Shown here: one piece after another, positions 2,354 to 25,114 of the stretch
How the letters are laid out: each line of letters begins with the position of its first letter
Numbering within the stretch: the stretch's first letter is position 1
DNA from: a virus
IMG/VR virus record: IMGVR_UViG_3300047557_000497
Coordinates: 1-27,255 of that record
Strand: one strand, 5' to 3'
DNA: 27,255 nt
Made by a program: the position numbers and the translations under genes
Notes under the pieces: model-generated
Database searches by the model: none
Told to the model about the DNA's origin: nothing
What the model saw: the letters and a program-made list of their open reading frames with translations, nothing else

Positions 2354-2537
2354 GAGCTACAAAAGCTGGTCTGCCATGGATGCGTCAAAGCAGGGGGTGT
2401 TACAAGAGTCTGCCTTTTCCGCCGGATGGGATGCGGCTACCAAGCGGTGCATCGATATTCTCAAGACCACATACATCATCGACGACGGCGAAGACTATGC
2501 CCAGCTAGTTCTGGATCGAATCAATGAAGACAGTTAA
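2340..2537 (+). CDS. Small hypothetical protein (65 aa)
   Basis: The frame is open from 2220, but the sensible start is ATG 2340, which follows a GGAGGGA site and gives a 65-residue acidic protein. It contains SAFSAGWDAATKRCIDIL, an F-x-x-GW-x-AA pattern found in many small phage proteins, then an acidic stretch (IDDGEDYAQLVLDRINEDS). There is no signal peptide, membrane segment or catalytic motif. It overlaps the zinc-ribbon gene by 14 bases at its start and the Ref-like nuclease gene by 14 bases at its end, so it is embedded in the same operon. Function is not recognised. Confidence 0.6.
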   Translation: MKKSESYKSWSAMDASKQGVLQESAFSAGWDAATKRCIDILKTTYIIDDGEDYAQLVLDRINEDS

Positions 2538-2808
2538 GCAGTATATGAACGAGGTGGCAGAGATTGGCTGTGTGCTCTGCCATCATCTGGGCTACGGTCA
2601 CAGCCCTGCTCACCTGCATCATCCTCGCGACGCGGTTGGAGGAGCACAGAGAGCGTCAGATTGGCTGGTGATTCCACTCTGCCCGGAGCACCATCAGGGA
2701 CAGAGCGGATACCATGGGTTAGGAAGCAGGGGGTTCTATACACGGTACAAGCTCACAGAGTGGGACTTGATGGCCATGACTATTGAGAGGCTGCATAACT
2801 CTTCTTGA
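2524..2808 (+). CDS. Ref-like HNH-family nuclease (recombination enhancement function type)
   Basis: This 94-residue protein resembles the nuclease domain of phage P1 Ref, a RecA-dependent HNH-superfamily endonuclease, and related small phage proteins. Visible residues are C16-x2-C19 (CVLC), the histidine run HLHHP at about 30-34, CPEHH (C53, H56, H57) and H64 in YHGLG. Together these form a zinc site and a His-metal active site. The order (CxxC, HHPR, a WLVIPLCPEHH strand, then GFYTRYKLTEWDLM) matches the family as I know it. It probably nicks or cuts DNA in recombination or packaging. Its last 29 bases overlap the 3' end of the giant virion gene on the opposite strand. Family is fairly sure, in vivo role is not. 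Confidence 0.75.
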   Translation: MKTVKQYMNEVAEIGCVLCHHLGYGHSPAHLHHPRDAVGGAQRASDWLVIPLCPEHHQGQSGYHGLGSRGFYTRYKLTEWDLMAMTIERLHNSS

Positions 2809-5800
2809 CCTCCAGACGGGCTTCCTCCATCTGGCGGGCGATCTCCCCGATCAAAACCTTCATCCGGTCGATCTCTTCCTTCTTCTGAGCGCCGGTCATG
2901 TTCTCGTCGTTGCGAATAGCCTGGATTGCCTGACGCATCTTGGCCATATCCTTGGACGCATTGTCGTAGAACTTGGCCATGGCAATCTTGTCGCCCTTCT
3001 CCTTCAGGATCTCCTGCACCTTATCTGCCTGACCTAGCTGCGCGAAGTGCCGCATGTCAGCATAGGCTTGGCTGATTTCTTTGTTGTTCTCGTAGAAGGC
3101 CGTGACGTACTTGGACTGCGTAGCCGGCAGGGACTTGATGAATCCCATCGACAGAGTTTCAGTCCAGTTATTGTCAGGATAAGCAGACTTGGAAAACGGC
3201 ATCACAGCATAGTGCGACAGCCAAGATGCGGTGCTTCCGAGCCATCCGAAGAAAGCCTTGATTGTGTAATCAGTTTGCACTGGAGACAGTTCTTTGGATT
3301 CTGGCAGAAATACGTTTGCCACTTCTGACAATCCTATTGCCAGTGGGCTGGTCTTTTCTGCAATCCTTTGTGCTTTAGATAAACGCTCCATGCCCGCAGT
3401 CTCAATCGGCGCACCGGTAAAGCTGTCCTTGTTGGCGTACAAGTCCACCAGCGGCTTTGCGACCTGTGGAAGATTTACCGCAAAGGTGTCAGTCAACATA
3501 CGAGACAGGCTCTCTTTGAACACCTTGCCTTCTACACCTTGGTCGAAGATCTGCTCCGCCACGCGCTCGGCAATCGTACCAAAAGCGCCTACTTCAAACG
3601 GCTTTGGAATGCGATAAGCCTGATCCATTCCTGGCAACTTAAACCACCAGAAGTTGTCGCGATCCCACTGTTCGCGCTTCTTGAACTCATCGTCATCTTT
3701 GAATGCCATGTACAGCGCAAGTGATGCCAAAGCTACAGCAGACATAATGATGCTGAACTGCTCTGCCCGCTGCTTGTCTGTGGCCTCTATTGGCTTGCCA
3801 GTGGCCGTGTTGTAGATCACCCGGCTAGTTGGAATAATCCCATCCCTGCCCAATTTGTACAGACCCTGCACACGCGCATTCAAGAATGGAACTACTTGCG
3901 TCAGAAAGCGGAACGCAGGCCATGATCCCTGCATGGAAAAGTCCAGCATGTCGCGAGCGTAGAACGATGCCTCAAGATGGCTGTAGCCTTGCTCTTTCAA
4001 CTGCTTGTACAGCGCCATGCGGTTGGCAGATTCTGACTTGTTTCCCCACTCCTGATACTTGTTCCACAAGAACTGCGATGCCTTTTTAATTTTCTCAGGG
4101 GTGTCAAGAATTGTGTTTGCCGGAACACCTTTATCAAGTAACCGCTTGATAAGTTTTGCTTGGTCGCCCTCGTAATAAGATCCAAAGTTGAACACAGCAC
4201 CGCCGGCCAGCGCAGAGATATGCGCAGGATTGTTGCGGTCAGATGCAGCCCAACCTTGGATGACGTTCGCAAACGGGTTCTTCTTCAAGTCTGTCACAGC
4301 CATAGCAGACACAGAGTCGCGGATTAAGTTTCGAATCTTGAACGCCGGAGACAACGTGACACCAAACTGGAGCATATTCTTGAACCCGCGAGCCACCTCA
4401 AGGAACTTGGACTTCGGCCCCATGTAACCTATGGACATAATGGACTCTAGCAACAAAGGCTCCTTGACATCAAAGTAGGCTGGTTTGCCGTCAATCACAG
4501 TCTTGACCGTGCCTTTGCCGCTAGTCGTGTACTCTGGTTTTAAGGATCCGTCGCCCACCATCTCGCCTGTGCGACTGCTGTAAACCTTTCCATCAATCCA
4601 GTCTAGCCCGACCTTGAGGTTAGGATATGCGCCATCAAGCTTCATGGCCGCCTTGATGGTTGCGTTGGCTGCCTCGTTCTTCATGGCCGCAGACAGGATA
4701 TGACTCCAGTTCCGCAGGGTGTTCTCCATCAGATCACCGAACGGTTTCTCTCCGCCCTTGAGAGCTTTTGAGAAGTACTGGTTTACCAGACCTGACTGCG
4801 TGGCGGCAGCCTGAACGTCGCTGTTCTCGTCCAGCATCTTGTAGAACGGGATGTAGTTAATGTCACGGGCGTAAACCTTGTACGCCTCCTCATCAATAAT
4901 TCCCTGCTCTTTTGCAATTTTCAGCACTGACTGGTTCAGCTTGTTCATGTCTTTCTGAACTTGCTTGTAAACTTCTAGCCGAGACTTGTCCCCAATCTTT
5001 CCTGAAGATAACTGGTCGCGCCGCTCAACAATTTTAGGGTTGATCGACGGAGCCTTGATGCTGCTCTTGAGCTTGCCAATCTCTACGCGCTTGGATGTAA
5101 TTGCTTTATCAACATCACTTCTGTAGTCATCCAAACTTTTCCGCAAAGACTTGAGCGCATCTCTTTTCTTGGCAGAAGAAAGGCTGTCATCATCAATAAT
5201 CTTCTTGGTTTCTTTGTCAAAAGCTTTCCCAGCCTCTGTCTTCAGGCCGCCCATCCTCTTGATCTCTTGTTCAGCCGCAGAGATTTCATCGCGAGCACGG
5301 TTGGATTTTTCAGTAATCGCCGCATCACGTTGTAACGCCACCCAGATCTGGTAACGGTCAACCTCTGCCCCTACCGGCTCCAGCACCTTCAGCAGTCCTT
5401 TGGTGTCCTTGGCAATATCAAGAGCGCCGTCAGTCAGCTTGACCTCGCCGTTAAACAGAATGCCTTCCAGCGCACCGTCGATAGTCTTCGACATGCGGGC
5501 TTTCATGTACGCTTCTTGGCTGATGTCCTTGATAGACCGATACTGGTCGGCCACACCCTGCGCCAGCTTCATCCAGAAGTCGTCGCGCATCCCGTCAATC
5601 TTGTCGATGATGGTCTTGCGTTCAGGGGCAAAGACTGGCTCCAAGTCGGCATACAGATCGTCAGACACGCCCTCGAACTGACTCTTCTTGAGAGTGCGCT
5701 TTTGCAGAGATTTCTTGGCTTTTTGCTTGACCGCCTCAACTTTGCTAGGCTTGCCGGCCTGCTCGAACAGCGTACCTTGGACTGGAGCTTCATCCGGCCT

Positions 5801-8800
5801 TACACCAAAGCTGTACTGCTTGGAGATGATCCTGTCTCCAACCGTGTTTACATCTTCGTCAAGGATGGATTCTGTGGTCTTGACCAACTGATCGAGCGCG
5901 GTCAGGTATGGCTTGGTAACGTTCAGTATCTTGCGGATCAACTCCACAAGCTTGTCCATGATGGTCTGCTCGCCAACCTTGATCTCTGACAGGAACTCCT
6001 GCATGTCGCGGTCTGCAATACCCCATGCCACCAGCTCGTCAGGGCCGGTTAAAGGATTGATCTCACCTGCGTATACCTTCTCCATAAACGGAGTAAGACG
6101 GCCAGCCCGCACCTCTGTGTTGAAGTGTGTGACAACCTTGTTGAAAAGATCGCGCAGTTCCTTGACTATCGGATCATCACCTTTCAGCACGTTGATCTGG
6201 CCGACAGTGGCCGCGTGCAGCAGCTCATGCAGGACAGTGATGTACCGAGTGCCTGGCGGATAGCCTCTCTGATTGTCAACAACAGCAGCACCATTCAAGG
6301 TTATCTTGATGGATGCCATCTTCTGTTCACCGCGCTTACCAAAGTCGTACTCGGTCAAACCGCGAGCGGCAGACATTTTCAACGGACGGCGCTCACCAGA
6401 CGTAACCTCGAAGTCCAGCTTGATGCCGCGCTTGGCCATGCCGTTCAAGCGGTTGGAAACCTTCTGGGCGATGGCCTTGGCAAAGTCGTTGGGCGCATTA
6501 TCGACAGCCCATTGTGCCGCTTGCAGCAGAGTCTTGCCAGTCAGCTCTTTCTCGATGCGAGCGTGCTCCGGGTCCTTGTTGATGACTAATTTGGCCTGCT
6601 CGGAAACTTGTTTTGTTTTTGGTGGGTTGCTTTTATCTATAACAACAACCGCTGGAATATTTTGTTTTCCTAGCGCGTCAAGAGCATCAATCCTATGAGC
6701 GCCCTCTAAAATATAGTTGCCATCTCCAGAATAAACAACAATTAAAGGATTTATTTCCCCCGACTGAGATATTTGTTCTGCTAGATTTCTAGTCCTTTGA
6801 TCAAGGGCATCTAAATTTCCAGTTGCCGGCCCTGGCTCACCAAGATCAGATATTGGCACTGATCTAATACCAGGAAGAACCGTGTAATCTTCTAAAGAAG
6901 CTTGAATTGAAGAAAGATTTGGAACATCTTTTCTTACCGTAAGTCCATCAACTACTTCGCCGGGCAAAACTCTTGGCAAGGATTTTTCAAAATTTTCTTT
7001 ATTTTGTTCCGCAGCACGACCACGCCCCTCCTCCTTCAGAAGATCCTGATCTGGGAAGTACTCTTCTTCCTCGACAGGCTCTGGTAGCGGCTCTTCTATT
7101 CCAACAAACCCTTCTTCCGGCGCAAGCTGCGCAGCCTCTGCCCGACGCTCCTCTACCGGCAACTCTGACACCGCTTCTTGAGCTATGTCCGGTGATTTGA
7201 GTTCAGAAATGCGCTGGTCAATCTGCGATAGCTGCTCTGCGAAGTCGTCAATCTGACTTTGTGTTTCGTACTCAAGAATTTTTGATCTTGGATTTTGCGC
7301 TTCTTCTGAGCGCAGCAAATTCTTGATGTACTCTTGAGAATCCGAGGCATCAAAAGTACCGGAGTCATGGCGCATAGCAGGCGGCAACCACTTGTCCAAG
7401 ATGCCGTCTTCTACCAAGTCCGACAATATTGAAAATTTCTTGCCCTCTTTGGCAACCAGATATGCAACGGATTTTTCTGGGCTAATGTCAAAAACATCCT
7501 CTGGGCCAAGCCTGCCCTTCAAGGTTGTTTTCAAATCTCCAGACTTGTCCACGGCACTACCGCGCAGCGCACGCATCTGCTTGTCTAACTCGTTGGCTTG
7601 TTTGGTTAGATCCTTAATCTCAAGATCAACCTCAGACTTGGGCGGTTTAGCAGTCTCCAACTTCATGGTGGCGCGACGGAAGTCTGCCAGCGCCTGATTG
7701 ACGGATTCAGTGACCTCATCTTCAGGAATGGCACCTGACTCCATTTGTTGCCGTAACTGCATTAGCTCTGGACGCACAGGCTCACGGGCACGACGGATGC
7801 CGTCCATGATCATGTCCATCTTCAGTCCTTGCAGCTCTTGAATTCTTGCCTGAACCTCTGCCGATTTTGGCTGCTGTTTAAGAAACTCAACCTCTTGAGT
7901 GGCCTCACCATACGTCATGGCCGGACGTGCAATCTCTTCAGCAGTCGGCTCCTCAAACTCACCCCTTCGCTCAACCGGTTGGGGTTCGTATTTTTTCTGG
8001 AACTGCTCTTCTTCGTAACGCGCCAGATCCTCCCTAGTCATAGCCACAGATCCGTCCGGCAACGCAACAGGCACGAACGCACCCTTACCCTCCAACAACA
8101 ACGGGATCTGTTTTTCTTCTACTGGCTTAGGCTTTTCCTGTTCCTTCGCAATAGCAGTTTCTTCTGCTGGTGGTAACGTTTCCACCTGTTGCCTACGTGA
8201 CAACCCAGCAGCAGTGCCTAGTCCAGCGCCACCTACAGCCGCCATACCCATGGTTTCGCCCAGACCTTCTGTCAGGCTTTGATCGGGTTTGACGTTTCTA
8301 ATAGCCAAGTTTTGAAGTACTTTGCCTCCGCCTTCTTCCACCATCTCGGCAGCAGCTTCACCAGCACCACCCTTGACCATGCCAGCCAGCTTGCCACCCT
8401 TGATCGGGACTTTGGCCATAGCTTCTTCAATTGCACGGCCGCCAGGCAGGCTATTTACTAATCCTGAGAGCGCACCTGCTGCAATACCAACTGCTCTTGC
8501 GTAGCCAAGGACTTGGCCAGTAGCCTCTTCTGGGGATACACCTTTGCTGACCAGCTCTTCGTGCATCCGCTTGAAAGTCTCTGCGCCAACGTCAGCACCT
8601 TGCTGTACTGCGCCTGTAGCTACAGCGCCGCGCATAGCTCCAGTTGCCATGCCAGCCTTCGCAAGACCACGAGCTACAGCCAAGCCCGGCAGCAGGTTGG
8701 GAGCCTGCTCTGCGATAAAGTTTGTCAGCAGACCGGGATCCTTGACGGTCTCTATGAACGCAGTGATACCCGCCTTTACTTCACCTTCTGCACCAGCTTC

Positions 8801-9094
8801 TTTGATCTTGGCCGCACGCTCGGCTTCAGCCTGCTTTAGCCCCGGAGACTTCATCTCTTCGGCATACTCGCGGACTTTGCGTCCAACCTTGGTCAGGCCG
8901 GTGTCAGAGAAGTCGCCCGTAGCCAAGCCGTACAGTTGGCCTGGTAGCTGTGCCAGTGCCCCCACACCAGATACGCCGCCGGCAAGAATATCTTTCAGCA
9001 TCGCGCGTTCTTTGGGTGCGGCAGAAACGTCAAACTGGTCAAACGGATTGCCAGCTTTGGTCTGCGCATCAAACTGGTCAAACGGGTTTGCCAT
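2780..9094 (-). CDS. Giant polyvalent internal virion / ejection protein (2104 aa) with ParB-like and zincin-like domains
   Basis: This is the last gene of the late operon, in the position of T7 gp16. The N terminus carries NPFDQFD twice (residues 3-9 and 16-22), then a glycine/alanine-rich hydrophobic region to about 300 and a charged glutamate/proline-rich part. A ParB/sulfiredoxin-like domain (about 700-832) has the core EGAHRIDALDAL. A HELLH motif (956-960) suggests a zinc metallopeptidase fold. Long coiled-coil segments occupy about 1240-1415. The C-terminal part (about 1565-1990) resembles the 'large polyvalent protein associated' domain LPD38, with SPAFKIRNLIRDSVSAMAV and a hydrophobic helix near 1780-1800. 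No lysozyme or SLT motif was recognised. ATG 9094 follows the upstream TAA directly; AGGGG lies upstream. It is probably packaged and ejected with the DNA; the exact activity is unknown. Confidence 0.85.
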   Translation of the reverse strand: MANPFDQFDAQTKAGNPFDQFDVSAAPKERAMLKDILAGGVSGVGALAQLPGQLYGLATGDFSDTGLTKVGRKVREYAEEMKSPGLKQAEAERAAKIKEAGAEGEVKAGITAFIETVKDPGLLTNFIAEQAPNLLPGLAVARGLAKAGMATGAMRGAVATGAVQQGADVGAETFKRMHEELVSKGVSPEEATGQVLGYARAVGIAAGALSGLVNSLPGGRAIEEAMAKVPIKGGKLAGMVKGGAGEAAAEMVEEGGGKVLQNLAIRNVKPDQSLTEGLGETMGMAAVGGAGLGTAAGLSRRQQVETLPPAEETAIAKEQEKPKPVEEKQIPLLLEGKGAFVPVALPDGSVAMTREDLARYEEEQFQKKYEPQPVERRGEFEEPTAEEIARPAMTYGEATQEVEFLKQQPKSAEVQARIQELQGLKMDMIMDGIRRAREPVRPELMQLRQQMESGAIPEDEVTESVNQALADFRRATMKLETAKPPKSEVDLEIKDLTKQANELDKQMRALRGSAVDKSGDLKTTLKGRLGPEDVFDISPEKSVAYLVAKEGKKFSILSDLVEDGILDKWLPPAMRHDSGTFDASDSQEYIKNLLRSEEAQNPRSKILEYETQSQIDDFAEQLSQIDQRISELKSPDIAQEAVSELPVEERRAEAAQLAPEEGFVGIEEPLPEPVEEEEYFPDQDLLKEEGRGRAAEQNKENFEKSLPRVLPGEVVDGLTVRKDVPNLSSIQASLEDYTVLPGIRSVPISDLGEPGPATGNLDALDQRTRNLAEQISQSGEINPLIVVYSGDGNYILEGAHRIDALDALGKQNIPAVVVIDKSNPPKTKQVSEQAKLVINKDPEHARIEKELTGKTLLQAAQWAVDNAPNDFAKAIAQKVSNRLNGMAKRGIKLDFEVTSGERRPLKMSAARGLTEYDFGKRGEQKMASIKITLNGAAVVDNQRGYPPGTRYITVLHELLHAATVGQINVLKGDDPIVKELRDLFNKVVTHFNTEVRAGRLTPFMEKVYAGEINPLTGPDELVAWGIADRDMQEFLSEIKVGEQTIMDKLVELIRKILNVTKPYLTALDQLVKTTESILDEDVNTVGDRIISKQYSFGVRPDEAPVQGTLFEQAGKPSKVEAVKQKAKKSLQKRTLKKSQFEGVSDDLYADLEPVFAPERKTIIDKIDGMRDDFWMKLAQGVADQYRSIKDISQEAYMKARMSKTIDGALEGILFNGEVKLTDGALDIAKDTKGLLKVLEPVGAEVDRYQIWVALQRDAAITEKSNRARDEISAAEQEIKRMGGLKTEAGKAFDKETKKIIDDDSLSSAKKRDALKSLRKSLDDYRSDVDKAITSKRVEIGKLKSSIKAPSINPKIVERRDQLSSGKIGDKSRLEVYKQVQKDMNKLNQSVLKIAKEQGIIDEEAYKVYARDINYIPFYKMLDENSDVQAAATQSGLVNQYFSKALKGGEKPFGDLMENTLRNWSHILSAAMKNEAANATIKAAMKLDGAYPNLKVGLDWIDGKVYSSRTGEMVGDGSLKPEYTTSGKGTVKTVIDGKPAYFDVKEPLLLESIMSIGYMGPKSKFLEVARGFKNMLQFGVTLSPAFKIRNLIRDSVSAMAVTDLKKNPFANVIQGWAASDRNNPAHISALAGGAVFNFGSYYEGDQAKLIKRLLDKGVPANTILDTPEKIKKASQFLWNKYQEWGNKSESANRMALYKQLKEQGYSHLEASFYARDMLDFSMQGSWPAFRFLTQVVPFLNARVQGLYKLGRDGIIPTSRVIYNTATGKPIEATDKQRAEQFSIIMSAVALASLALYMAFKDDDEFKKREQWDRDNFWWFKLPGMDQAYRIPKPFEVGAFGTIAERVAEQIFDQGVEGKVFKESLSRMLTDTFAVNLPQVAKPLVDLYANKDSFTGAPIETAGMERLSKAQRIAEKTSPLAIGLSEVANVFLPESKELSPVQTDYTIKAFFGWLGSTASWLSHYAVMPFSKSAYPDNNWTETLSMGFIKSLPATQSKYVTAFYENNKEISQAYADMRHFAQLGQADKVQEILKEKGDKIAMAKFYDNASKDMAKMRQAIQAIRNDENMTGAQKKEEIDRMKVLIGEIARQMEEARLEVKKSYAASQ
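6601..7020 (-). other. AT-rich segment encoding the ParB-like domain within the giant gene
   Basis: By hand count this segment is about 40% G+C, while the 120 bases on either side are about 53-58%. It encodes residues of roughly 692-832, which carry the ParB/Srx-like core (INPLIVVYSGDGNYILEGAHRIDALDAL). The sharp match between composition change and domain borders suggests a domain acquired by recombination. This is a feature inside the 2104-residue gene, not a separate gene. Confidence 0.6.
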
Positions 9095-15524: not shown

Positions 15525-16388
15525 TCATAGCGCAGACGTAAATGTTGCCGTTAAAATAATTGACGGCGACGTAGGGTGCGCTGGGCTAGTTCCTGGCGGA
15601 TACGTCACCGCCAAAGTATTGCCGCTATCTGACGCAAAGTAAATTTGGATGTAATCGTTGGCGTTTACCGGAATGATAATGTTCCACGAGATAATCGCCG
15701 TCGCTGGCTTGGTGGCTGTAATCCTGCCGGGGATGGTGCCAAGTCCTGCGCTGTAGTCGATATTGGATCCGTTCTTTGAGAACCATATCGTTACATTATC
15801 AACCGCAGTATCGAACGACAACAACTGCAAACTAAACTGGATGTTGTAGTAGCCAGCCGTCTCAAACACAACCTTGGACATATCTGTAGGGTCTAGCGCC
15901 ACACCATTACTGCTGGTTGTCTCAGACATATAAAGCGGTACAGGGGCCGTGGCTGACTGCACCTCACCTACATACACACCGCTCAAATGTGCAGCGTTGC
16001 TTGAACCAAACTGGCCTCGCGTGCAGCCTGTAAACGAAGTTGCTGTTTTGCCGGTGTACGTTATGACTTCGGACCCAATAAGTATTGCTCCACTATCTTG
16101 GAAAAATTCTGTAGAAGCAACAGGAATGGTCGTGACTGCGTTGTTTATATTGGCAGTCAGTGTCGTAACACCGTCTTGAAAAAACGCACCCTGCGGTAAC
16201 GCCAACGTATTAAGCGCACCTGCATTTAACTGGGCAATAAAATTATCAAGCTGAGAGAAGTACAAACGCAGGACGTTGTTCAACTGATCTATGTACTGAC
16301 GGCTGTACTCCGTAGGCGCAACAGGCAGCGCCGGGGCTTTTGTCCTCGATAGAGTCGTAACCTCTGTAGTGACAATCTGTGTGCTCAT
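15525..16388 (-). CDS. Tail/virion protein with C1q/TNF-like C-terminal domain (287 aa)
   Basis: Residues 1-65 form a helical attachment region (YSRQYIDQLNNVLRLYFSQLDNFIAQL) as in fibre N termini. Residues 75-140 are a beta-rich module with GSEVITYTGKTATSFTGCTR, also present in the next gene upstream. The C-terminal part (about 145-287) has the strand pattern of a C1q/TNF-like jelly roll: AGYYNIQFSLQLLSF, NVTIWFSKNGSNIDYS, PVNANDYIQIYFASDS. Such domains trimerise at fibre tips or decorate tails. ATG 16388 overlaps the nozzle gene's stop (ATGA, 16385-16388). It is probably a tail appendage or short fibre. Structural role likely, exact place unknown. Confidence 0.72.
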   Translation of the reverse strand: MSTQIVTTEVTTLSRTKAPALPVAPTEYSRQYIDQLNNVLRLYFSQLDNFIAQLNAGALNTLALPQGAFFQDGVTTLTANINNAVTTIPVASTEFFQDSGAILIGSEVITYTGKTATSFTGCTRGQFGSSNAAHLSGVYVGEVQSATAPVPLYMSETTSSNGVALDPTDMSKVVFETAGYYNIQFSLQLLSFDTAVDNVTIWFSKNGSNIDYSAGLGTIPGRITATKPATAIISWNIIIPVNANDYIQIYFASDSGNTLAVTYPPGTSPAHPTSPSIILTATFTSAL

Positions 16389-18520
16389 CTGCGACCGTCA
16401 GGACGTACATCGATTCTGGGAGCGCCCAACTGCCACTGACAACCAAGCTGGTTGGACTCAATCTTGAACGCCATCTGTCGGCCACGCAGCCTTGTGTACA
16501 CAATCTCAGTGAACTCCTGCACGGTATAGTTTCTGACTGATGCGTAGCTCTGCATGGATGTGACAGAAGCATTTGCCGATGCAGCGTACGGCGCACCAGG
16601 ATTCTGACGCGGGCGCAGGCTGAACGTGACCTGTGGCTTGTCAGGCGTAGGCGTGCTAGATCCGTCAAACGTGATATCTGGGATCATCCTCCAGACGAAG
16701 CCATAGTTGTGGCCATCGCCGATATCAAAGTCTGATGACTGGATGTAAGCGTTGATCGGCAGGACTGTGCCGTTGACCTCGATGTCATCGTTGCCACTCT
16801 CGTGGAACACCACTGTGTGACTGTACGTGGCTGCCATCGGGTTCTCACGCAGCGGGCTGTCCAGCCATGCCGTGCGGCCAAGATTGCCGTAGTACCAGAC
16901 CTGATCCAGATAGTTGTAGATCACGTACCGGTCAATCACGTCGCTGCCAGCGGAGCAGTAGAACCACCATATCTCACTGTAGCCTTCGTTCGTGCCGGCA
17001 AAGAACTGATCCTGCTGGTCAAGGTTGATGTTGCCGTAAACGTACTGACGCAGGCTGCATGGTAATGTTTCCACACGTCCGGTGTAAGCGTAGAACTTGT
17101 CCACGCCCATCCAGTAGGTAATGTTGTTTGCCGTGGCTACAGCGTTCGGGCCGGCTATCGAGATGTTGTCAGACAGGATGTTGAAGCCCCAGACGAAGGG
17201 TGGCCCAAGATACTGCATCGAGAACACAGCACTATCTGTAAATACCAGAATCTCCTGACGAGTCTGCTGGGCTGTGACGATGGTCGATCCCGATGACAGG
17301 CGGAAGCTACCAGCCTGATTCGTAACTGCCGGCGTCCAGACTTGGTAGTTCTCCTGATCTGACCAGCGGATCAGCATCGGATCCTGAGAGGTTTCGTTGT
17401 AGTCATTCACGCCGAACGTGATGACAAAACGGCTGGAGTCAGAGACCATCACAAAGTTACAAACTGACGGGCAGCCTGAATCTGTTTGATACACGCCAGA
17501 GCTGGTGCTCGATAGCAGAGTCGCAGGGGTGGTAAACAGCAGACTGCCGGCTCCTGTGTACTGCGGTATCCACATGTACAGCGCACCGCCGCGAGGATTG
17601 ATGATCAGATAGTCACCGTAATTTGACTCTGACCACAAACGTAGCTGCTGCGGGATGCCGAACGCCGCTGACTGTCCCCAGCCGGTAAACGAGTTAGCGC
17701 GGTAGACGATGGTCCCGTTGGAATGCGTGGTGGCAATAGTTCCATTCGCTCCTCGCGTAGCGCCCGTAAACGTCGTGGCAGTGTTTCCAGTATAGGTGGC
17801 CAGCTCCGAATCCATCAGGATCGTGCCGGTAGCGTTGGAGAACCCGGTAGTAGATGTAACCGTGATCGTGGTATTCGATGCGTCTAGCGTGGCGCTCAGT
17901 GTCGTCTGGTTGGTGCCGCTGACAAAACCACCCCAGAGACCAGCGCCCCAGCCTGCTGCGTATCCAAACACAGCCTGGCCGATGTTTAACTGGTACGCAG
18001 CCGTCACCGTCCCGCCGCCGGTAGCATCAGCGTTGGCGTTGGCAGAAGCAGTGATGGTGTAGCTGTTGGTGTTGACGTACGTGATCCTGAACTCGCCGTT
18101 CAAGGTCAGGCCGCCCACAGCCGTAGCGCCCGAGAAGGTCACATAGTCGCCATCAATCGCGCCATGATCAGCGTCGGTAACCGTTACCGTTCTAGAGCCG
18201 TTGGTAGTCGTAAACGGATTGGTCAGCGTGGCTGTAGCTCTGATCGGTGTAATGTCGTTGTATACACCGCCGCTCTCAACGTAGTACTTAACGTTCGTGC
18301 CAAGGCCGAGCAGGTTGTATCCCCGCAGCGTCACCCAGTTCCAGAGCGTACGGGCCACACCAAGATAGGTGTTACTGGAGATGGGCTGCCAGCCGCCGAG
18401 CTTCTGAGGATACCCAGAACGAAAACGAATCTTGTCGCACTCAAACCAGCCGCCTTCATTGGCGAGCGTAGTGCCCTCGCGATTTACACCTGGTCGGAGT
18501 TGCAGTTTCTGTAATGGCAC
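16385..18520 (-). CDS. Tail nozzle / tail tubular protein B-like (P22 gp10-like), 711 aa
   Basis: The start is GTG 18520, with GGTGAG six bases upstream. The opening MPLQKLQLRPGVNREGTTLA and GGWFECDKIRFRSGYPQKLGGW, together with the C-terminal GRQMAFKIESNQLGCQWQLGAPRI, fit the beta-propeller protein that closes the tail in P22 (gp10) and T7 (gp12). Blades with repeated WxxxE/YGDYLIIN, MVSDSSRFVITF and QEILVFTDSAVFSMQYLG are visible. Two extra beta-rich modules sit near the N terminus: residues about 95-172 (DGDYVTFSGATAVGG) and 206-275 (ATYTGNTATTFTGATRG). The second is shared with the 287-residue protein. The position before the ejection-protein genes agrees. Role confident at the level of tail component; nozzle identity moderate. 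Confidence 0.72.
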   Translation of the reverse strand: MPLQKLQLRPGVNREGTTLANEGGWFECDKIRFRSGYPQKLGGWQPISSNTYLGVARTLWNWVTLRGYNLLGLGTNVKYYVESGGVYNDITPIRATATLTNPFTTTNGSRTVTVTDADHGAIDGDYVTFSGATAVGGLTLNGEFRITYVNTNSYTITASANANADATGGGTVTAAYQLNIGQAVFGYAAGWGAGLWGGFVSGTNQTTLSATLDASNTTITVTSTTGFSNATGTILMDSELATYTGNTATTFTGATRGANGTIATTHSNGTIVYRANSFTGWGQSAAFGIPQQLRLWSESNYGDYLIINPRGGALYMWIPQYTGAGSLLFTTPATLLSSTSSGVYQTDSGCPSVCNFVMVSDSSRFVITFGVNDYNETSQDPMLIRWSDQENYQVWTPAVTNQAGSFRLSSGSTIVTAQQTRQEILVFTDSAVFSMQYLGPPFVWGFNILSDNISIAGPNAVATANNITYWMGVDKFYAYTGRVETLPCSLRQYVYGNINLDQQDQFFAGTNEGYSEIWWFYCSAGSDVIDRYVIYNYLDQVWYYGNLGRTAWLDSPLRENPMAATYSHTVVFHESGNDDIEVNGTVLPINAYIQSSDFDIGDGHNYGFVWRMIPDITFDGSSTPTPDKPQVTFSLRPRQNPGAPYAASANASVTSMQSYASVRNYTVQEFTEIVYTRLRGRQMAFKIESNQLGCQWQLGAPRIDVRPDGRR

Positions 18521-18526
18521 TTTTGC

Positions 18527-19189
18527 TCACCCATGATTTATGGCCGCCATCACTTTGTCGTACAAAGCTTGGCGAGCTTCAAGCCCAATATAACCACCGT
18601 TGATCTTCTTGGTCATGCCCTTTATATCAGAAGCATCCGCCAGTGGCGATAGGTTGTTAGTCTTCCAAAACCATCCGGCAGAACGGGCGGCATATATAGG
18701 TTCCAGCAGCAGATCAGGATTGGCTACCAAGTCCACGCCTAGCGCGTCTCCGCACCGTTTGTAATTATCCTTGCCAGTGAGCTGCTTTAGCCCTCTGCCC
18801 CGAAACTTCCAACCCTCGCCCGACTGCGGTGGACCGTTACCCATCCGTGAGCTGTAGACCATGTTGGCTATCAGCTCTGGCTTTTTCTCAATTGATAATG
18901 CCACCTTGGTAGGTATCAGCGCACCCTTGGCATCCCGCTTGGGCTTCTTGTTTGGGCCGAGTTCAGCAAACCTGTTAGGCCAGCAGGCCGCCAACGTCGC
19001 AGCGCGGTAGTTCAGGTTTTCCGTCAGCATGGTGTAGCCGCCAGACTCATGCGAGGTCTGGGCTAGGAAAGCGGCTACCCGCTTCTCGTTGTTGATCTCA
19101 AACTCAACACAGGTCTCAATCAGGGGCTGCAACCACTTGTCGGGATCCTTGATCTTGGCCGCAACCAGCAATGGGCTAGTCGGATTCAC
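18527..19189 (-). CDS. Endolysin, GH19 chitinase-like muramidase
   Basis: This 220-residue protein matches phage GH19-type lysins. FLAQTSHESGGYTMLTENLNY (residues 41-61) includes the presumed catalytic glutamate E48, followed by YSSRMGNG (about 112-119) and EGWKFRGRGLKQLTGKDNY (125-143). The C-terminal half has AARSAGWFWKTNNL and ends with MTKKINGGYIGLEAR. It should cut peptidoglycan glycan strands. There is no signal peptide or membrane anchor, so it needs the holin next door for export. The start is GTG 19189, overlapping the holin stop as GTGA, with a good AAGGAG at 19198-19203. It is the most securely recognised gene of the late operon. Confidence 0.93.
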   Translation of the reverse strand: MNPTSPLLVAAKIKDPDKWLQPLIETCVEFEINNEKRVAAFLAQTSHESGGYTMLTENLNYRAATLAACWPNRFAELGPNKKPKRDAKGALIPTKVALSIEKKPELIANMVYSSRMGNGPPQSGEGWKFRGRGLKQLTGKDNYKRCGDALGVDLVANPDLLLEPIYAARSAGWFWKTNNLSPLADASDIKGMTKKINGGYIGLEARQALYDKVMAAINHG

Positions 19190-19683
19190 TTGCCAATCTC
19201 CTTCATCTTCTTGTCAGTGTCTTCCTGTGCTTTGTTGGAAGATCCGTACCAGAAACGTATCAGGCTGTTGATAGCTGTACCAATCAGGAAACCAAGGATG
19301 ATGTTGATGAAGTCCCTGTTCTTGTTCTCGATGGGCATGAACGACACCATGAAGAAGTACAGGAACGAGACTATCGTGATGAACCAGCCGTACAGATATA
19401 CGTGCCGTCGGATGATCGGGTCTGTGGATTTCATGGCTTCCATCTGCATGTCTGTTGCACGTTGGGTGGACTTCTCGTCCAGCTCTGCCATGAACTCGGC
19501 GTGGCGGTTGGCCTCTTCTTGCAGCTTGGCGTTGTACTCAGGGGTAGCTTCTCCTTCAGGCTTCAGCTCCATTCCAAGCTTTTCCTGAACCGCATCCACA
19601 CCCTTCTCGATCACTTGGTCTGCAACCTTGTGCATACCGTTCTGGATCAGGTTGGAAACAATACCAGCTACGATAGGTAACAT
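19186..19683 (-). CDS. Holin-like membrane protein (GTA-type holin family)
   Basis: This 165-residue protein has a soluble, charged N-terminal half (amphipathic start, then helix about 45-85) and two strong membrane segments at about 95-116 (HVYLYGWFITIVSFLYFFMVSF) and 124-146 (DFINIILGFLIGTAINSLIRFW), then YGSSNKAQ and a charged tail. The GFLIGT...YGSS-K ending resembles the holin family named for gene-transfer-agent release. It is followed directly by the endolysin (GTGA overlap), the classical holin-lysin order. AGGGGGA precedes ATG 19683. It should form the inner-membrane hole that triggers lysis. Some phages use homologous proteins as antiholins, so the exact lysis role remains open. Confidence 0.75.
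   Translation of the reverse strand: MLPIVAGIVSNLIQNGMHKVADQVIEKGVDAVQEKLGMELKPEGEATPEYNAKLQEEANRHAEFMAELDEKSTQRATDMQMEAMKSTDPIIRRHVYLYGWFITIVSFLYFFMVSFMPIENKNRDFINIILGFLIGTAINSLIRFWYGSSNKAQEDTDKKMKEIGK
19198..19203 (-). promoter_or_regulatory. Ribosome binding site of the endolysin
   Basis: AAGGAG on the - strand lies eight bases before the GTG at 19189, within the holin coding sequence. It justifies the GTG start and suggests strong translation of the endolysin. Confidence 0.65.
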
Positions 19684-19684
19684 C

Positions 19685-19978
19685 TCAGTCCCCCTGCATC
19701 ATCAACATCATCTTGAGCCGCAGCTCACGCATTTTCTTTATTTCTTCTACCGCTACCGCCGTCGCATTGTGCGCATCCATCAGCGCCATCCCAATCAACG
19801 GTATTGCTACTACAAAGGTCAGAGCCATTATTGCTAGACATATAATGACAATGACCGATACGTGTGACTCATCCTTATCATTATTAGGACGGCCCACATC
19901 CATATTGCTACGAACAGGATTGCCCCAATCCAAGTTGCCAGATTTTTTATCTGGTTTACCGCCCTTCTGCGTCGCCAT
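19685..19978 (-). CDS. Small single-span membrane protein (97 aa), lysis cassette
   Basis: The polar, lysine-rich N terminus (1-39) is followed by one long hydrophobic helix (about 40-67, VSVIVIICLAIMALTFVV) and a basic/acidic helix (VEEIKKMRELRLKMMLMM). It ends one base before the holin ATG. Its first 145 bases overlap, in another frame, the 3' end of the 232-residue gene, including that protein's membrane segment. There is no good ribosome site before ATG 19978, so expression may depend on coupling. Topology would suit an inner-membrane spanin partner or holin regulator, but no lipobox or spanin signature is seen. Gene reality probable, function unknown. Confidence 0.55.
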   Translation of the reverse strand: MATQKGGKPDKKSGNLDWGNPVRSNMDVGRPNNDKDESHVSVIVIICLAIMALTFVVAIPLIGMALMDAHNATAVAVEEIKKMRELRLKMMLMMQGD

Positions 19979-20532
19979 GATGCAATCTGATTCTTCCTCA
20001 GTTCGTCAGCCAAAGCCGCGTTCTGCTCTTGCACGATCTCCTGCCAGGCTTTCTCCCACCGTGTGTACACGTTAGATAGCTCTGGCGGCGTCTGGTACAC
20101 CATCATCTCGCGCACCTCTGAGAGCATAGAATCCAACTGCGTCCTAATCTGTATCCTGCGCAGCGCCCTCCGGGCTAGTGATTCGTCCCCCTTGTACAGC
20201 TTCCTAGCATTAGCTTCTTCTTCTATGAAAGCCTTGGCCAGCTTGTCATACTCATCTATGAACGTACCTAAGTAGTCCCAGATATCATTAAGCGCGTCTT
20301 GGGGGTGGGTTTTTGCCACCTCCTGAACGCGCTTGACCTCTTCTTGGTACTGCTTTGTCTGCTCCGGGCTGGGGTTAACCAGCTTGTGATACTGCTCTTT
20401 CAGATCCTTCAGCACTCCGCTGACGTCGCCGGCTGTAGACCTGACGTCCTTGTAAATTTTTATGCCTTGCTTTACAAGGTCGATTGCGGTGGTTGCGGCC
20501 TTGAAACACGCAGCAATCGTCAGCGGATCCAC
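19834..20532 (-). CDS. Hypothetical helical protein with C-terminal membrane anchor (232 aa)
   Basis: This starts at GTG 20532, three bases after the upstream stop codon. The sequence opens MDPLTIAACFKAATTAIDLVKQ and is mainly alpha-helical and charged, with VRSTAGDVSGVLKDLKEQY near 30-50 and paired arginines (RRALRRIQIRTQL) near 121-133. One membrane helix lies at about 198-219 (LATWIGAILFVAIWMWAVLI), preceded by RRRR and followed by a short polar tail. It therefore seems to be an N-in, tail-anchored protein. It sits upstream of the small membrane protein, holin and endolysin, so a lysis or virion-membrane role is plausible. I recall similar proteins in aquatic phages but no assigned function. 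Confidence 0.65.
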   Translation of the reverse strand: MDPLTIAACFKAATTAIDLVKQGIKIYKDVRSTAGDVSGVLKDLKEQYHKLVNPSPEQTKQYQEEVKRVQEVAKTHPQDALNDIWDYLGTFIDEYDKLAKAFIEEEANARKLYKGDESLARRALRRIQIRTQLDSMLSEVREMMVYQTPPELSNVYTRWEKAWQEIVQEQNAALADELRKNQIASWRRRRAVNQIKNLATWIGAILFVAIWMWAVLIMIRMSHTYRSLSLYV

Positions 20533-20535
20533 ATT

Positions 20536-20901
20536 TTATGCAGCCTGCTGTGCTACCCAGCTAGTTGTAGCCTCATCCCACGAATACATCTGACCGTCAG
20601 TAGGCATATCCACAGGAGCCTTCCACTGGCAGGTGTCTTCGTTCAGCACCCAGCTTGCGAAGGGCTTGGGCGGGATGAACGCATCACGCTGCTCATCGTA
20701 GGTATAGCCAATACCGGCATAGTTCTTACGGATACGGGCGTTATAGCTAGTCTGCACCCAACGGCCTCCTAGAAGCCGCTCACAGAAAGCCGCGCCAATG
20801 TATTCCTTTTCAATGCCATTAGCGTCAGCCGTGTCCTTGTTGTCTACTACGATAACTTGCTCGACCACATTGTTCGGGCCAAGACGGGCAAAGTGGCTCA
20901 T
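20536..20901 (-). CDS. Conserved phage hypothetical protein (121 aa)
   Basis: This begins MSHFARLGPNNVVEQVIVVD and contains GGRWVQTSYNARIRKNYAGI followed by GYTYDEQRDAFIPPKPFASW. It resembles a protein repeatedly seen in cyanophages and other aquatic phages as I recall, always without a known role. The composition is aromatic-rich (W, Y, F), beta-strand-like and soluble. ATG 20901 overlaps the last base of the preceding oxygenase stop codon (TAATG), so translation is coupled. In such genomes it accompanies virion genes and may be a minor structural protein, but nothing in the sequence demonstrates that. Confidence 0.75.
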   Translation of the reverse strand: MSHFARLGPNNVVEQVIVVDNKDTADANGIEKEYIGAAFCERLLGGRWVQTSYNARIRKNYAGIGYTYDEQRDAFIPPKPFASWVLNEDTCQWKAPVDMPTDGQMYSWDEATTSWVAQQAA

Positions 20902-21509
20902 TACTCTTCTCCTAGTTGCAGTCCAGTTAAGCTCTCATCGACACCGATGTGCCCCTTGAGAAAGGTGTTAAACGCAATGCTGACACGAGTCTCGTTACCT
21001 ACTTTCGTCTCAACCATGTGCTCAAGATGCGACGGGAACAGAATCAAATCCCCTGCCCCTACCTCAAACCACCAGCTCTCAGAGTTCCAGTGGTTCCATG
21101 TAGCAGGCTGAACCTTGATCCGCTCGTAGCCGCTCTTGTAAAAGTAAATCTTGTCTACCGACCTGTCAGCCTGCGGGTAGAACACACCGCTGATAAAGCT
21201 GTTAGGGTGAGCATGTTTGTGGTGATACTGCCCCGGATCAGTGTAGTTCGCCCATGATTGCGTGACATATAGCGCAACATCGCCCTTTGGGTCATGCACT
21301 GTCTTGAAGTATTCCAGCATCGCGTCTTCGATAAAGTCACGGATGTCTGTCAGTTCCTTGTCCTTCAAAATCGTGCGGTTTGAACTGGTAATGTTTCCTT
21401 GGTTCGGATACTTATCCTGACCAAGAATGTAGTCCAGCTCTGTTTTAGTCAGATCACGACCCAGACGGAAGAAGCCGATAGGTAACGGGAAAAGGTTGTG
21501 AATGTTCAT
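20901..21509 (-). CDS. 2-oxoglutarate/Fe(II)-dependent oxygenase (phage type)
   Basis: ATG 21509 is preferred to the TTG three bases upstream, giving 202 residues. The iron site is visible: H99/H101 in YHHKHAHPNSFISGVFY, the distal histidine in FPSHLEHMV (H161 or H164), and R175 in ETRVSIAFNTF, which would bind 2-oxoglutarate. This is the layout of the 2OG-FeII_Oxy family common in cyanophages and related phages. The enzyme would hydroxylate a protein, nucleic acid or small molecule using 2OG and oxygen; the substrate is unknown. It follows the adhesin genes and an 86-residue ORF, with TGATG coupling. Its place in the late operon raises the possibility of modifying a virion protein, which is speculative. 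Confidence 0.82.
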   Translation of the reverse strand: MNIHNLFPLPIGFFRLGRDLTKTELDYILGQDKYPNQGNITSSNRTILKDKELTDIRDFIEDAMLEYFKTVHDPKGDVALYVTQSWANYTDPGQYHHKHAHPNSFISGVFYPQADRSVDKIYFYKSGYERIKVQPATWNHWNSESWWFEVGAGDLILFPSHLEHMVETKVGNETRVSIAFNTFLKGHIGVDESLTGLQLGEE

Positions 21510-21769
21510 CAATTCACCGCCTTATCGTATTCCTGCTGGCGACCTAGCAACTCTTCCAGTTGCTTCTTTGTCCACACGGTTTTAATGCTGTCCTCAAAAG
21601 CTTTGATCTTCTCCATAGTGTCATGCACTTCTTCCATCGTCGGGCATGGACGCTCATCCTCCCAGACGCTGAAGAAGTTGTTGGTGATCTCCCATCGTGC
21701 GCCCGGACGTAGCAGGTGCATCGCTGTATCAATACCGTAGAGCATGTACACTTTTTTCTCCACTCTCAC
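21509..21769 (-). CDS. Small hypothetical protein (up to 86 aa)
   Basis: The core YMLYGIDTAMHLLRPGARWE is followed by TNNFFSVWEDERPCPTMEEV and a helical end (DTMEKIKAFEDSIKTVWTKK). From memory, this resembles short proteins in aquatic phage genomes near the tail-fibre genes; function unknown. The start is uncertain: GTG codons occur at 21769, 21763 and 21751. An AGGGAG-like site fits the second and GTGGAG fits the third, which would begin MYMLYGID. The stop shares a base with the oxygenase ATG (TGATG). The acidic C-terminal helix suggests a partner-binding protein. Confidence 0.65.
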   Translation of the reverse strand: MRVEKKVYMLYGIDTAMHLLRPGARWEITNNFFSVWEDERPCPTMEEVHDTMEKIKAFEDSIKTVWTKKQLEELLGRQQEYDKAVN

Positions 21770-21776
21770 TCTCCCT

Positions 21777-23474
21777 TTATGAGTTTAGTTTTAGGATAAC
21801 TATGCCGGAACCTCCAGAGCCGCCAGCGACAAACGAGCCAGAATAGCCAGAACCACCACCGCCCCCTCCAAGGTTCGCAGTTGCTGCGGTCGGAATAGTT
21901 GAACTAGCAGTTCCATTGGCACCACCACCAGAACCGCCTGTTCCCGCAGTACCACCTTGACCACCACCGCCGCCGCCACCAGCGTAAGTTACAGAAGAAC
22001 CAGTAAGCGTTGATGTCGTCCCATTTCCACCATTTCCGCCTTTTACTGCTGGCGATGCAACTCCAGCTTGACCACTTTCAGATGCTCCACCACCGCCACC
22101 TCCATTACCAACACCAGCTCCCGCAGCAGAACCACCTCCATTATTCCCCTGTGCAGGAGCCGTAGACGGAGTATTCCCAGCGCCAGCAGCAAAATTTTGA
22201 GTGCTCCCGCCGCCAGAACCACCTGCGGCACCGGCTTGGTTTGAGTCACTTCCTCCTCCGCCACCGCCGTTAGAGGTTATGGTACTGAAAATTGAATTAC
22301 CGCCGTTTGAACCTTTTACTGATGTTGAAGCAGCTCCAGCTCCACCAGCACCTACGGTAATAGCATAAGTGGCTCCAGAAGAAACCGAAAACGCTGTGCC
22401 AGTTCTAAAACCTCCAGCGCCTCCTGCGCCAGCTAGAGAGCCACCTCCACCTCCACCAGCAACAACAAGGTAGTCCACACTTGTCACGCCCGGAGGAACA
22501 GTCCACGAGCCAGAAGCATTAAACGTCACTACGCCTGTCTGTGGGGCTAGGTATTTGATAATGACAATGCCGCTGCCTCCGGAACCGCCCGTCGAATTAT
22601 TTGGGAAGCCGCCGCCGCCACCGCCGCCGCCTGTGTTTACAGTACCGGAACCAGCAACAGAACTTGCAGCACCATTACTGCCGTTACCGCCACCACCGAG
22701 ACCGCCCGTACCACCTTGATTGGTTGTAGGGGTTGTTCCGCAGCCACCGCCACCCCCTCCTGCGTAAAATGTTGATGATCCACTTATTGAAGAAGCAGTT
22801 CCATTACCTCCTGCGCCCCCATTGTTCGGCCCAGAGCCGGGTCCCGCACCATTCCCGCCAGCAGCAGATGCACCACCACCACCGCCTCCAGAATCTGTTG
22901 CGCCGGGAACTGCGGCACCAGCGCCACCATTGTTTCCTTGAGATGGCGTAGTTGCAGGTGTATTTCCAGCGCCTCCAAGACCTACAGGACCACCGCCATT
23001 TCCTGTCCCGCTTCCACCAGAACCACCAGAAATTCCAGTTACAGTTGAACTGTTATCACCACCACCGCCGCCACCATTTGTGGTAATAGTGCTAAATATG
23101 GAATTTGCACCAGATACCCCTCTCCCATTATTGTTTCCAGCTCCGCCAGAGCCAACAGTAATTGTATAAGTGGTTCCGGGAATTACGGGAAATCCTGTTC
23201 CAGTTCTAAATCCTCCAGCACCGCCAGCACCATAATATTTTCCTCCTCCACCACCACCCGCCACTACAAGGTAATCCACCTGCGACACACCATCCGGGCA
23301 TGTCCACGAGCCAGAGGAAGTGAAAGATAGAACAACAGTGTTCGTAGGTATGCCGGGCCATACGCCTGCCTTGATAGCCTGCAATGCCTGCTGTAGCGTC
23401 CATATCCCCGATGCCTGCGTCGTGCTCGGCAAGCGAGGACTTTTCGTCATTATTCTGCCGGGATAATCACTCAT
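21777..23474 (-). CDS. Glycine-rich tail fibre / adhesin, copy 1 (565 aa, two modules)
   Basis: A short unique N terminus (1-45, SGIWTLQQALQAIKAG) is followed by two homologous glycine-rich modules. Each begins with a WT-PxGV-xVDYLVVAGGGGGG strand and AGGFRTGT, passes through long G/S/A/N runs with an AGNTPxTxPxQGNxGG block, and ends GGSGIVI[IL]K. Such proteins resemble phage adhesins with packed polyglycine-II helices (as in gp38 of T-even-like phages), where variable loops bind the receptor. ATG 23474 has AAGGT upstream. The gene follows its paralogue (23483-25114) by eight bases. It is likely the distal receptor-binding part of the tail. Adhesin role probable, receptor unknown. Confidence 0.75.
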   Translation of the reverse strand: MSDYPGRIMTKSPRLPSTTQASGIWTLQQALQAIKAGVWPGIPTNTVVLSFTSSGSWTCPDGVSQVDYLVVAGGGGGGKYYGAGGAGGFRTGTGFPVIPGTTYTITVGSGGAGNNNGRGVSGANSIFSTITTNGGGGGGDNSSTVTGISGGSGGSGTGNGGGPVGLGGAGNTPATTPSQGNNGGAGAAVPGATDSGGGGGGASAAGGNGAGPGSGPNNGGAGGNGTASSISGSSTFYAGGGGGGCGTTPTTNQGGTGGLGGGGNGSNGAASSVAGSGTVNTGGGGGGGGFPNNSTGGSGGSGIVIIKYLAPQTGVVTFNASGSWTVPPGVTSVDYLVVAGGGGGGSLAGAGGAGGFRTGTAFSVSSGATYAITVGAGGAGAASTSVKGSNGGNSIFSTITSNGGGGGGSDSNQAGAAGGSGGGSTQNFAAGAGNTPSTAPAQGNNGGGSAAGAGVGNGGGGGGASESGQAGVASPAVKGGNGGNGTTSTLTGSSVTYAGGGGGGGQGGTAGTGGSGGGANGTASSTIPTAATANLGGGGGGSGYSGSFVAGGSGGSGIVILKLNS

Positions 23475-25017
23475 GTCTTACCTTATTGATTGCACTTGAT
23501 GATGACGATACCTGAGCCGCCTGTGCCGCCGGGGTTTGGTGTTGTTGATGCACCGCCACCTCCACCACCAGTGTTTGCTGTACCGTTTATAGCATTTCCT
23601 CCTACCGGCCCGCCGTCGCCGCCGCCACCTGTACCGCCTACACCTTTATTCCCGCCATAGTCAGTGTTAGCACCTCCGCCTCCACCTCCGGAATATGTCG
23701 TTGAAATTCCAGAAATACTAGAGGCAGTTCCATTTCCACCTTTTCCGGATATGCCTGTGCCACTATTACCAGTTTGCCCTACCTCACTTGCGCCGCCGCC
23801 CCCACCAGAAGCATAAGGTGAAGAAAATGCTCCACCAGCGCCGCCGTTATTTCCTTGGGATGGTGAAGTAACCGGGGTATTTCCAGCGCCAGCAGTTCCT
23901 CCAGAATATCCACCACCACCAGACCCGCCAGCAGCTCCGTTCGGTGCACCACCACTACCACCAGCACCACCTCCATTAGAAGTTATAGTGCTGAGCGTCG
24001 AATTTCCGCCGTTGGTATTTGTAGCTCCACCAGCGCCAACCGTTACAGTGTATTCAGTTCCAGCAGTTACAGCCAAAGCTGATCCGGTTCTAAAACCACC
24101 GGCACCGCCGCCGCCAGATGATGAACTAGAACCACCGCCACCACCGCCAGCCACAACCAGATAATCCACTGTTGTCACGCCGACAGGAGCGACCCACTTC
24201 TGGGTAGAGCGGAATACATAAATGGATTGCGAGGGTGCGATATACCGGATAATGACAATGCCAGAGCCGCCTGCGCCGCCGTTTCCTGAGTTTGCGCCGC
24301 CGCCACCTCCGCCACCAGTGTTAGCTGTCCCATTGCTACCTGCGGTTGTCGAAGGGGCTGATCCATTACCTCCACCACCCACACCTCCTAACCCGGCGGT
24401 TCCGCCAGCAGGGCCAACTGCTCCACCGCCGCCACCACCAGCATAAGTAACAGATGCCCCCGAAAGTGTAGACGCAGTTCCAGCGCCACCGTTACCAGCG
24501 ACTAAATTGCTCGGGCCAGAACTATTTCCGCCTCCAGCACTAGCGCCACCGCCGCCACCAGCTCCACTTTGGCCTGCTGTATTTCCACCATTACCACCAG
24601 CATTACCTTGTGATGGAGTTGTTGATGGCGTATTTCCTGCCCCGCCAGTATAAGTAGCAGGCCCAGAACCTCCACCACCGCCACCAGAACCGCCAGCAGC
24701 TCCGTTGTTTAAAGACTGCGCACCGCGTCCACCACCATTTGAAGTTATGGCGCTAAATATTGAGTTTCCGCCGTTGCTTCCAGCGCCGCTTCCAGAAGCC
24801 CCAGTTCCGCCAGAACCTACGGTAATTGAATACGTAGCCCCCGGAGTTACAGGAAGCGCAGTTCCAGTTCTAAAACCTCCTGCACCGCCACCACCACCAA
24901 CGTCATATCCAACTCCACCGCCACCACCAACCACAAGGTAATCAACAGCAGTCACACCCGCAGGCGCAGTCCAGTAGCCGGATGCAGTAAAGGTCTGGAC
25001 AACAGTTACCCCTCTAG
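21783..25017 (-). repeat. Four tandem homologous glycine-rich modules across two genes
   Basis: Modules lie at roughly 24235-25017, 23489-24220, 22543-23337 and 21783-22537. On the + strand each carries a near-identical AGTTCTAAAACC-type block (at about 24866, 24086, 23202 and 22401; encodes GFRTG) and a GTAxTCCAC block (encodes VDYLV). They are long, low-complexity and rich in CCACCGCC on the + strand. The repeats provide homology for recombination between modules. Confidence 0.7.
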
Positions 25018-25114
25018 GCCAACTGCCAAGATTCCAGATACCCGAAGCAAAGCCGGGCGTATACAGCGGAGAACTCGCGCTGATAATGTTGCCGGGATAC
25101 CCGTGAATTGCCAT
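23483..25114 (-). CDS. Glycine-rich tail fibre / adhesin, copy 2 (543 aa, two modules)
   Basis: This paralogue of the 565-residue protein has a different N terminus (MAIHGYPGNIISASSPLYTP, then ASGIWNLGSW). The first 35 or so residues probably dock to the tail, and SGIW is shared with copy 1. It has two modules: about 36-293 (YWTAPAGVTAVDYLVVGGG to GGSGIVIIRYIAPSQ) and about 296-543 (KWVAPVGVTTVDYLVVAGGG to GGSGIVIIKCNQ). Glycine dominates, with serine, alanine and asparagine. AAGGG lies before ATG 25114. Two adjacent paralogues could form one hetero-oligomeric tip or give alternative receptor binding. Confidence 0.75.
   Translation of the reverse strand: MAIHGYPGNIISASSPLYTPGFASGIWNLGSWPRGVTVVQTFTASGYWTAPAGVTAVDYLVVGGGGGVGYDVGGGGGAGGFRTGTALPVTPGATYSITVGSGGTGASGSGAGSNGGNSIFSAITSNGGGRGAQSLNNGAAGGSGGGGGGSGPATYTGGAGNTPSTTPSQGNAGGNGGNTAGQSGAGGGGGASAGGGNSSGPSNLVAGNGGAGTASTLSGASVTYAGGGGGGAVGPAGGTAGLGGVGGGGNGSAPSTTAGSNGTANTGGGGGGGANSGNGGAGGSGIVIIRYIAPSQSIYVFRSTQKWVAPVGVTTVDYLVVAGGGGGGSSSSSGGGGAGGFRTGSALAVTAGTEYTVTVGAGGATNTNGGNSTLSTITSNGGGAGGSGGAPNGAAGGSGGGGYSGGTAGAGNTPVTSPSQGNNGGAGGAFSSPYASGGGGGASEVGQTGNSGTGISGKGGNGTASSISGISTTYSGGGGGGANTDYGGNKGVGGTGGGGDGGPVGGNAINGTANTGGGGGGASTTPNPGGTGGSGIVIIKCNQ

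Follow-up and report, generated by a model that had tools for sequence, protein, structure and literature searches.

The tail fibre gp24 of phage Pam3 (PDB 7YPX), which is described as receptor-recognising and is paired with the chaperone gp25, is built around a TNF-like domain that extends into a glycine-rich stack with variable tips (PMC9608196). The gp38 adhesins of phages S16 and PP01 (PDB 6F45; PMC12892980) likewise display hypervariable receptor-binding loops on a glycine-rich scaffold; they contain a beta-helix domain and no TNF-like domain (PMC9608196, PMC12892980). Here we analysed 27,255 bases of an IMG/VR virus record from an uncultured aquatic phage (the window), in which two adjoining genes on the minus strand, A and B, encode paralogous proteins with two glycine-rich modules apiece, each of 246-268 aa. 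The modules were delimited by module search, Pfam matches and pairwise alignment, and the locus is laid out as follows.

Gene A, 23483-25114, minus strand: open reading frame for a 543-aa adhesin-like protein with two glycine-rich modules (PF21722 twice, E 4e-53).
Gene A N-terminal anchor (aa 1-37), 25004-25114, minus strand.
Module A1 (aa 38-297), 24224-25003, minus strand.
Module A2 (aa 298-543), 23486-24223, minus strand.
Gene B, 21777-23474, minus strand: open reading frame for a 565-aa paralogue with two glycine-rich modules (PF21722 twice, E 2e-48).
Gene B N-terminal anchor (aa 1-46), 23337-23474, minus strand: contains SGIWTLQQALQAIKAGVWP.
Module B1 (aa 47-314), 22533-23336, minus strand.
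Module B2 (aa 315-565), 21780-22532, minus strand.

The original prediction of two homologous modules in each of two adjoining genes was borne out. Searching the window with one module recovered the other three at E-values of 2e-37 to 9e-41, PF21722 (Gly_rich_2) matches proteins A and B twice each with 181 and 166 bits against a curated cut-off of 24.3, and the six module pairs share 58-64% amino acid and 58-62% nucleotide identity. The homology of the four modules is far above chance. Alignment at the DNA level, which the prediction had proposed as a check, confirmed this with about 60% identity, the longest exact stretch common to any two window modules being 17 nt in pairwise comparison. 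Third bases of shared four-fold codons match in 34-45% of cases, where codon usage alone would give 31%; given this low agreement and the lack of exact DNA matches above 17 nt, the duplications that gave rise to the window modules are old. The motifs VDYLVV, AGNTPxTxPxQGNxGG and GGSGIVI, listed earlier as common to all four modules, are indeed present in each, while AGGFRTGT is found in three and reads AGGFRTGS in module A2. In PHROGs both adhesins fall into family 2295, annotated as of unknown function, with a weaker match to a tail fibre assembly family.

An AlphaFold2 model of the gene A product, built from an alignment of 55 relatives, has a mean pLDDT of 89.8 with low confidence in residues 1-32 only. 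These residues are disordered in the model, the glycine stretches, which may pack as polyglycine-II helices as originally suggested, are assigned neither strand nor helix by DSSP, and no helix of at least four residues is present. Foldseek ranks the Pam3 tail fibre first among PDB structures (7ypx_A, E 6e-6, probability 1.00), followed by a Bxb1 tail tip protein (9D93, E 1.6e-4) and then by the TNF-like/glycine-rich domain of the ALK receptor at insignificant E-values. Whole-chain TM-scores to 7ypx are modest (0.24 and 0.48), the query having two modules and the target one. A sequence-profile search also ranks Pam3 first (E 0.003). Profile and fold searches took the place of tblastn, which returned no matches for gene A among annotated phages, probably as a result of low-complexity masking by BLAST. 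When the modules are aligned, mean entropy is 0.14 bits at conserved glycine columns, compared with 1.35 over all columns, and each module contains nine hypervariable runs, almost all of them flanked by runs of glycine. A scaffold of glycine bearing variable tips would be expected to give this pattern.

The adhesin-like identity proposed for the two proteins is thus supported by PF21722 and by the fold match to Pam3 gp24, with which the window module agrees in both fold and profile. The long N-terminal alpha-helical docking domain of gp24 is absent from the gene A model, and for this reason we assign the module to the Pam3 gp24 type and do not regard the whole protein as a gp24 orthologue. Pam3 gp24 carries one module on a long helical shaft, whereas the window proteins have a short disordered anchor followed by two tandem modules, and two such genes adjoin. 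The second structural match, from Bxb1, is the tail tip protein of an Actinobacteriophage, with 22% identity. Kinship with the S16 gp38-type adhesins did not hold up: S16 gp38 appears neither among PDB fold matches at E<=10 nor among profile matches, and the likeness to gp38 would be a functional one.

Searches with gene A and with a 711-aa protein of the window gathered 158 loci. In the lineage of the window the adhesin slot is bordered by the 302/221/133-aa genes on one side and by the 232-aa to 711-aa genes on the other. Its contents are either the A and B pair with two modules each, one gene with two modules, one gene with a single module, or unrelated genes. Among annotated phages, a close arrangement is that of DSL-LC04 (OR003939), in which a syntenic two-module protein (WJZ48128.1) is followed by 95-aa, 2OG oxygenase and 119-aa genes, and whose stabilisation protein shares 38.5% identity with the 711-aa protein; unlike the window, DSL-LC04 has a single glycine-rich gene, with a concanavalin-A-like gene after it. 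One relative, L085, is 93% identical to the window at the nucleotide level over 16227-20548 and 81-95% identical in other matching flanks, yet both adhesin genes are replaced by two laminin-G proteins (PF13385, with three and four domains), the N-terminus of one of which weakly resembles the gene B anchor (E 0.015). Laminin-G genes can therefore take the place of the entire cassette. In L085 this version of the slot (2829-5243 and 5253-7985) also includes a 107-aa gene that weakly matches the ALTTAQ repeat.

Conservation within the cassette itself is sharply divided. The gene A anchor is 89-100% identical in nucleotide sequence in nine relatives with A modules of 69-73% identity, and outside the modules the gene B anchor region is 76-100% identical to relative L097 and others. 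Between L097 and the window, nucleotide identity is 96-100% in the gene A anchor and 89-100% in the gene B anchor and the B1-B2 linker, against mostly 40-75% in the module interiors; at third bases both anchors are 100% identical and each of the four modules 35-46%. Interiors that diverged in place could not have become saturated beside unchanged anchors, which argues that the interiors (or the whole anchors) have been replaced by recombination. A tree of whole modules groups them by position (8 changes against 32.5 when shuffled) and first suggested fixed modules, a reading that was dropped once edges and interiors were treated separately: among 58 modules, the edge tree needs 5 position changes (minimum 3, shuffled mean 33) and the interior tree 22 (shuffled mean 32), so it is mainly the edges that are tied to position. 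Interiors at the same position are 59.1% identical, those at other positions 58.1% and those within one phage 58.6%. The loss of position signal in the interiors is partly due to saturation, and cases of direct transfer were therefore sought.

A comparison of 602 distinct modules (400 loci) yielded 26 pairs with a common stretch of 250 nt or longer at 80% identity or more; in some of them one phage is present in two records. Some 15 of the pairs are blocks the size of a module lying between 300-nt flanks of only about 58-76% identity, and in roughly half of these the two copies occupy different module positions. L316 and L319 are 100% identical over 768 nt, every synonymous site included, between flanks of 59 and 76%; module 1 of L289 matches module 2 of L322 at 98% over 708 nt, and module 1 of L180 matches module 3 of L320 at 92% over 715 nt. 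The transferred blocks start and stop at conserved module edges, which suggests that the unit of exchange is the module interior between these edges. Misassembled public contigs could explain some of the transfers; several, with identities of 80-96%, are too old for this. Other pairs, free of indels, are 92-95% identical as proteins and 49-61% identical at third bases, and module B2 of the window shares 88% amino acid but 38% third-base identity with that of L006, a pattern suggesting that interior alleles may have persisted for long under purifying selection. In loci L289, L295 and L322 single genes carry four tandem modules, whose interiors are shared among themselves and with L024 at different positions.

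For the window itself the observed pattern is mosaic, and whole-module transfers are documented in its relatives. Recent exchange within the window locus was considered and set aside, as both the limit of 17 nt on shared DNA and the near-saturated third-base identity argue against it. The original prediction had named matching DNA blocks of the AGTTCTAAAACC type as recombination sites. This 12-base block occurs four times in the window with at most one mismatch, against 0.05 expected, and corresponds to the codons of GFRTG; its codon conservation is about background, whereas conservation is raised at the module edges PxGVxxVDYLVVAGG and GGSGIVI, and a role as an exchange site was accordingly rejected. 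The larger idea, that the locus is a cassette for host-range diversification, survives in part: interiors vary, modules move between genes and positions in relatives, and the cassette is replaceable. Comparison with related phages, also proposed at the outset, cut both ways, since the module arrangement in the lineage is mostly 2+2 with position-bound edges and the interiors change. Our search of the literature, which was narrow and partial, found no account of module exchange in these proteins.

Taken together, these results make it likely that genes A and B form a receptor-binding cassette with modules of the Pam3 gp24 type, diversified by recombination of module interiors. We infer virion location and receptor binding: the two genes would encode paralogous tail-fibre or tail-tip receptor-binding proteins, in each of which a short docking peptide at the N-terminus precedes a tandem pair of beta-rich modules. 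Each module would form a TNF-like sandwich whose strands run on into a stack rich in glycine, and some nine short hypervariable tips may project from this stack; the conserved edges and glycine runs would keep the fold while the tips set specificity. Homologous recombination would replace whole interiors between the conserved edges, across phages, genes and positions, the whole cassette would sometimes be replaced, and a downstream 121-aa protein probably aids folding of the adhesins. Module exchange of this kind would let these phages alter what they bind. Phages that infect freshwater and marine bacteria commonly encode proteins of the Gly_rich_2 type, most of which are annotated only as hypothetical or glycine-rich in the records examined, and the data suggest a tandem module that acts as an exchange unit with clear edges, from which host-range evolution could be read in sequence.

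The grouping of whole modules by position, and the fact that no copy of the four window interiors exceeds about 73% identity among the matches listed by a pattern-limited search, would also fit modules that diverge in place through fast point mutation and indels under arms-race selection, in fixed order and without exchange. We consider this very unlikely, as it leaves synonymously saturated interiors next to anchors that are 100% identical at third bases, places the position signal in the edges and not in the interiors, and has to accommodate module-sized blocks of 92-100% identity between dissimilar flanks. A programmed switch, by which the four modules of one phage recombine during growth to produce variants within its population, appears extremely improbable. 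Four modules do lie at one locus, interiors have moved across positions in relatives, and the window contains a gene for a Ref-type RecA-dependent nuclease; yet the window modules share at most 17 nt exactly, no inverted repeats were found among them, and interiors within a phage are no more alike than those between phages. No match to RVT_1 was found in 17 lineage records, several of about 58-65 kb, with control genomes positive, and this lack of a reverse transcriptase argues against a diversity-generating retroelement as well. It is also unlikely that the proteins are virion or surface components with another role, such as stabilising or decorating the particle, and bind no receptor. The functionally uncharacterised PHROGs family leaves room for such a role, but the best fold match is a phage tail fibre described as recognising receptors (PMC9608196), the slot is alternatively occupied by laminin-G lectin-type proteins, and variation is concentrated in the tips.

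The proposed receptor-binding cassette is trailed in the window by three further genes.

86-aa accessory gene (phrog_21526), function unknown, 21509-21769, minus strand: near 42 of 53 loci with at least two modules and 0 of 19 with one.
2OG-Fe(II) oxygenase (PF13759, phrog_81), 20901-21512, minus strand: near 39 of 53 loci with at least two modules, 1 of 19 with one and 0 of 9 with other cassettes.
121-aa gene (phrog_7759), candidate adhesin chaperone, 20536-20901, minus strand: near 51 of 53 loci with at least two modules, 16 of 19 with one and 0 of 9 with other cassettes.

The linkage of the oxygenase to two-module as against single-module loci has a Fisher P of 1.6e-7, a value that is overstated, the loci being non-independent and the profiles built from the lineage. 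Both the oxygenase and the 86-aa gene are absent from the laminin-G versions examined, and profile searches with the 86-aa family returned nothing convincing. As with gp24 and gp25 in Pam3, a small gene trails the adhesin in most relatives: in 12 of 15 named phages the gene immediately upstream of phrog_7759 is glycine-rich, a count that includes phiPsal1 in a corrected reading frame, with Greip left unjudged. In DSL-LC04 two genes lie between the glycine-rich gene and the downstream phrog_7759 gene, and S-SSM5 and S-CAM8 have a phrog_7759 gene with no glycine-rich gene directly upstream. The model of the 121-aa protein has a pLDDT of 94.7, and Pam3 gp25 is its second Foldseek match, a weak resemblance at E 0.56; since the fold search gave no match below E 0.2, it is mainly gene adjacency that points to phrog_7759, a companion of these adhesins across aquatic phages, as a candidate chaperone.

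These associations also indicate a testable role for the oxygenase, an enzyme that two phage papers file under DNA repair or auxiliary metabolism (PMC11288001, PMC10436341). A rather doubtful extension would be a combinatorial system of binding modules with its own maturation genes, in which interiors drawn from a shared pool of aquatic phages are folded with the help of phrog_7759 and hydroxylated by the 2OG-Fe(II) oxygenase, perhaps in the GNTPxTxPxQGN block, before binding. Clusters of several 2OG-Fe(II) oxygenase genes adjoin the phrog_7759 gene in cyanophages S-SSM5, S-RSM4 and S-CAM8 and in pelagiphage HTVC008M (loci L171, L174, L175 and L176). In Pontimonas phage phiPsal1 (L173, MG835450), the deposited frame of phiPsal1_022 at about 2500-3400 appears to be wrong; read in an alternative frame, the region encodes a glycine-rich module, and the phrog_7759 gene lies directly downstream.

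Elsewhere in the window, a thiamine-pyrophosphate enzyme is split over two overlapping plus-strand reading frames (3-509, truncated by the window start, and 506-1237; PF00205 central and PF02775 C-terminal domains) and adjoins an NAD-dependent epimerase/dehydratase (1234-2145, plus strand; PF01370), with which it may form a sugar-modification pair. Next on the plus strand are a 68-aa protein whose only match is an NrdR-like zinc ribbon (2147-2353; PF22811) and the small recombination-related gene matching the RecA-dependent nuclease Ref (2524-2808; PF16786, E 3e-8). A 2104-aa protein on the minus strand (2780-9094) has a ParB-like stretch near residues 745-855, and its C-terminal part matches phrog_18222, a family of unknown function.
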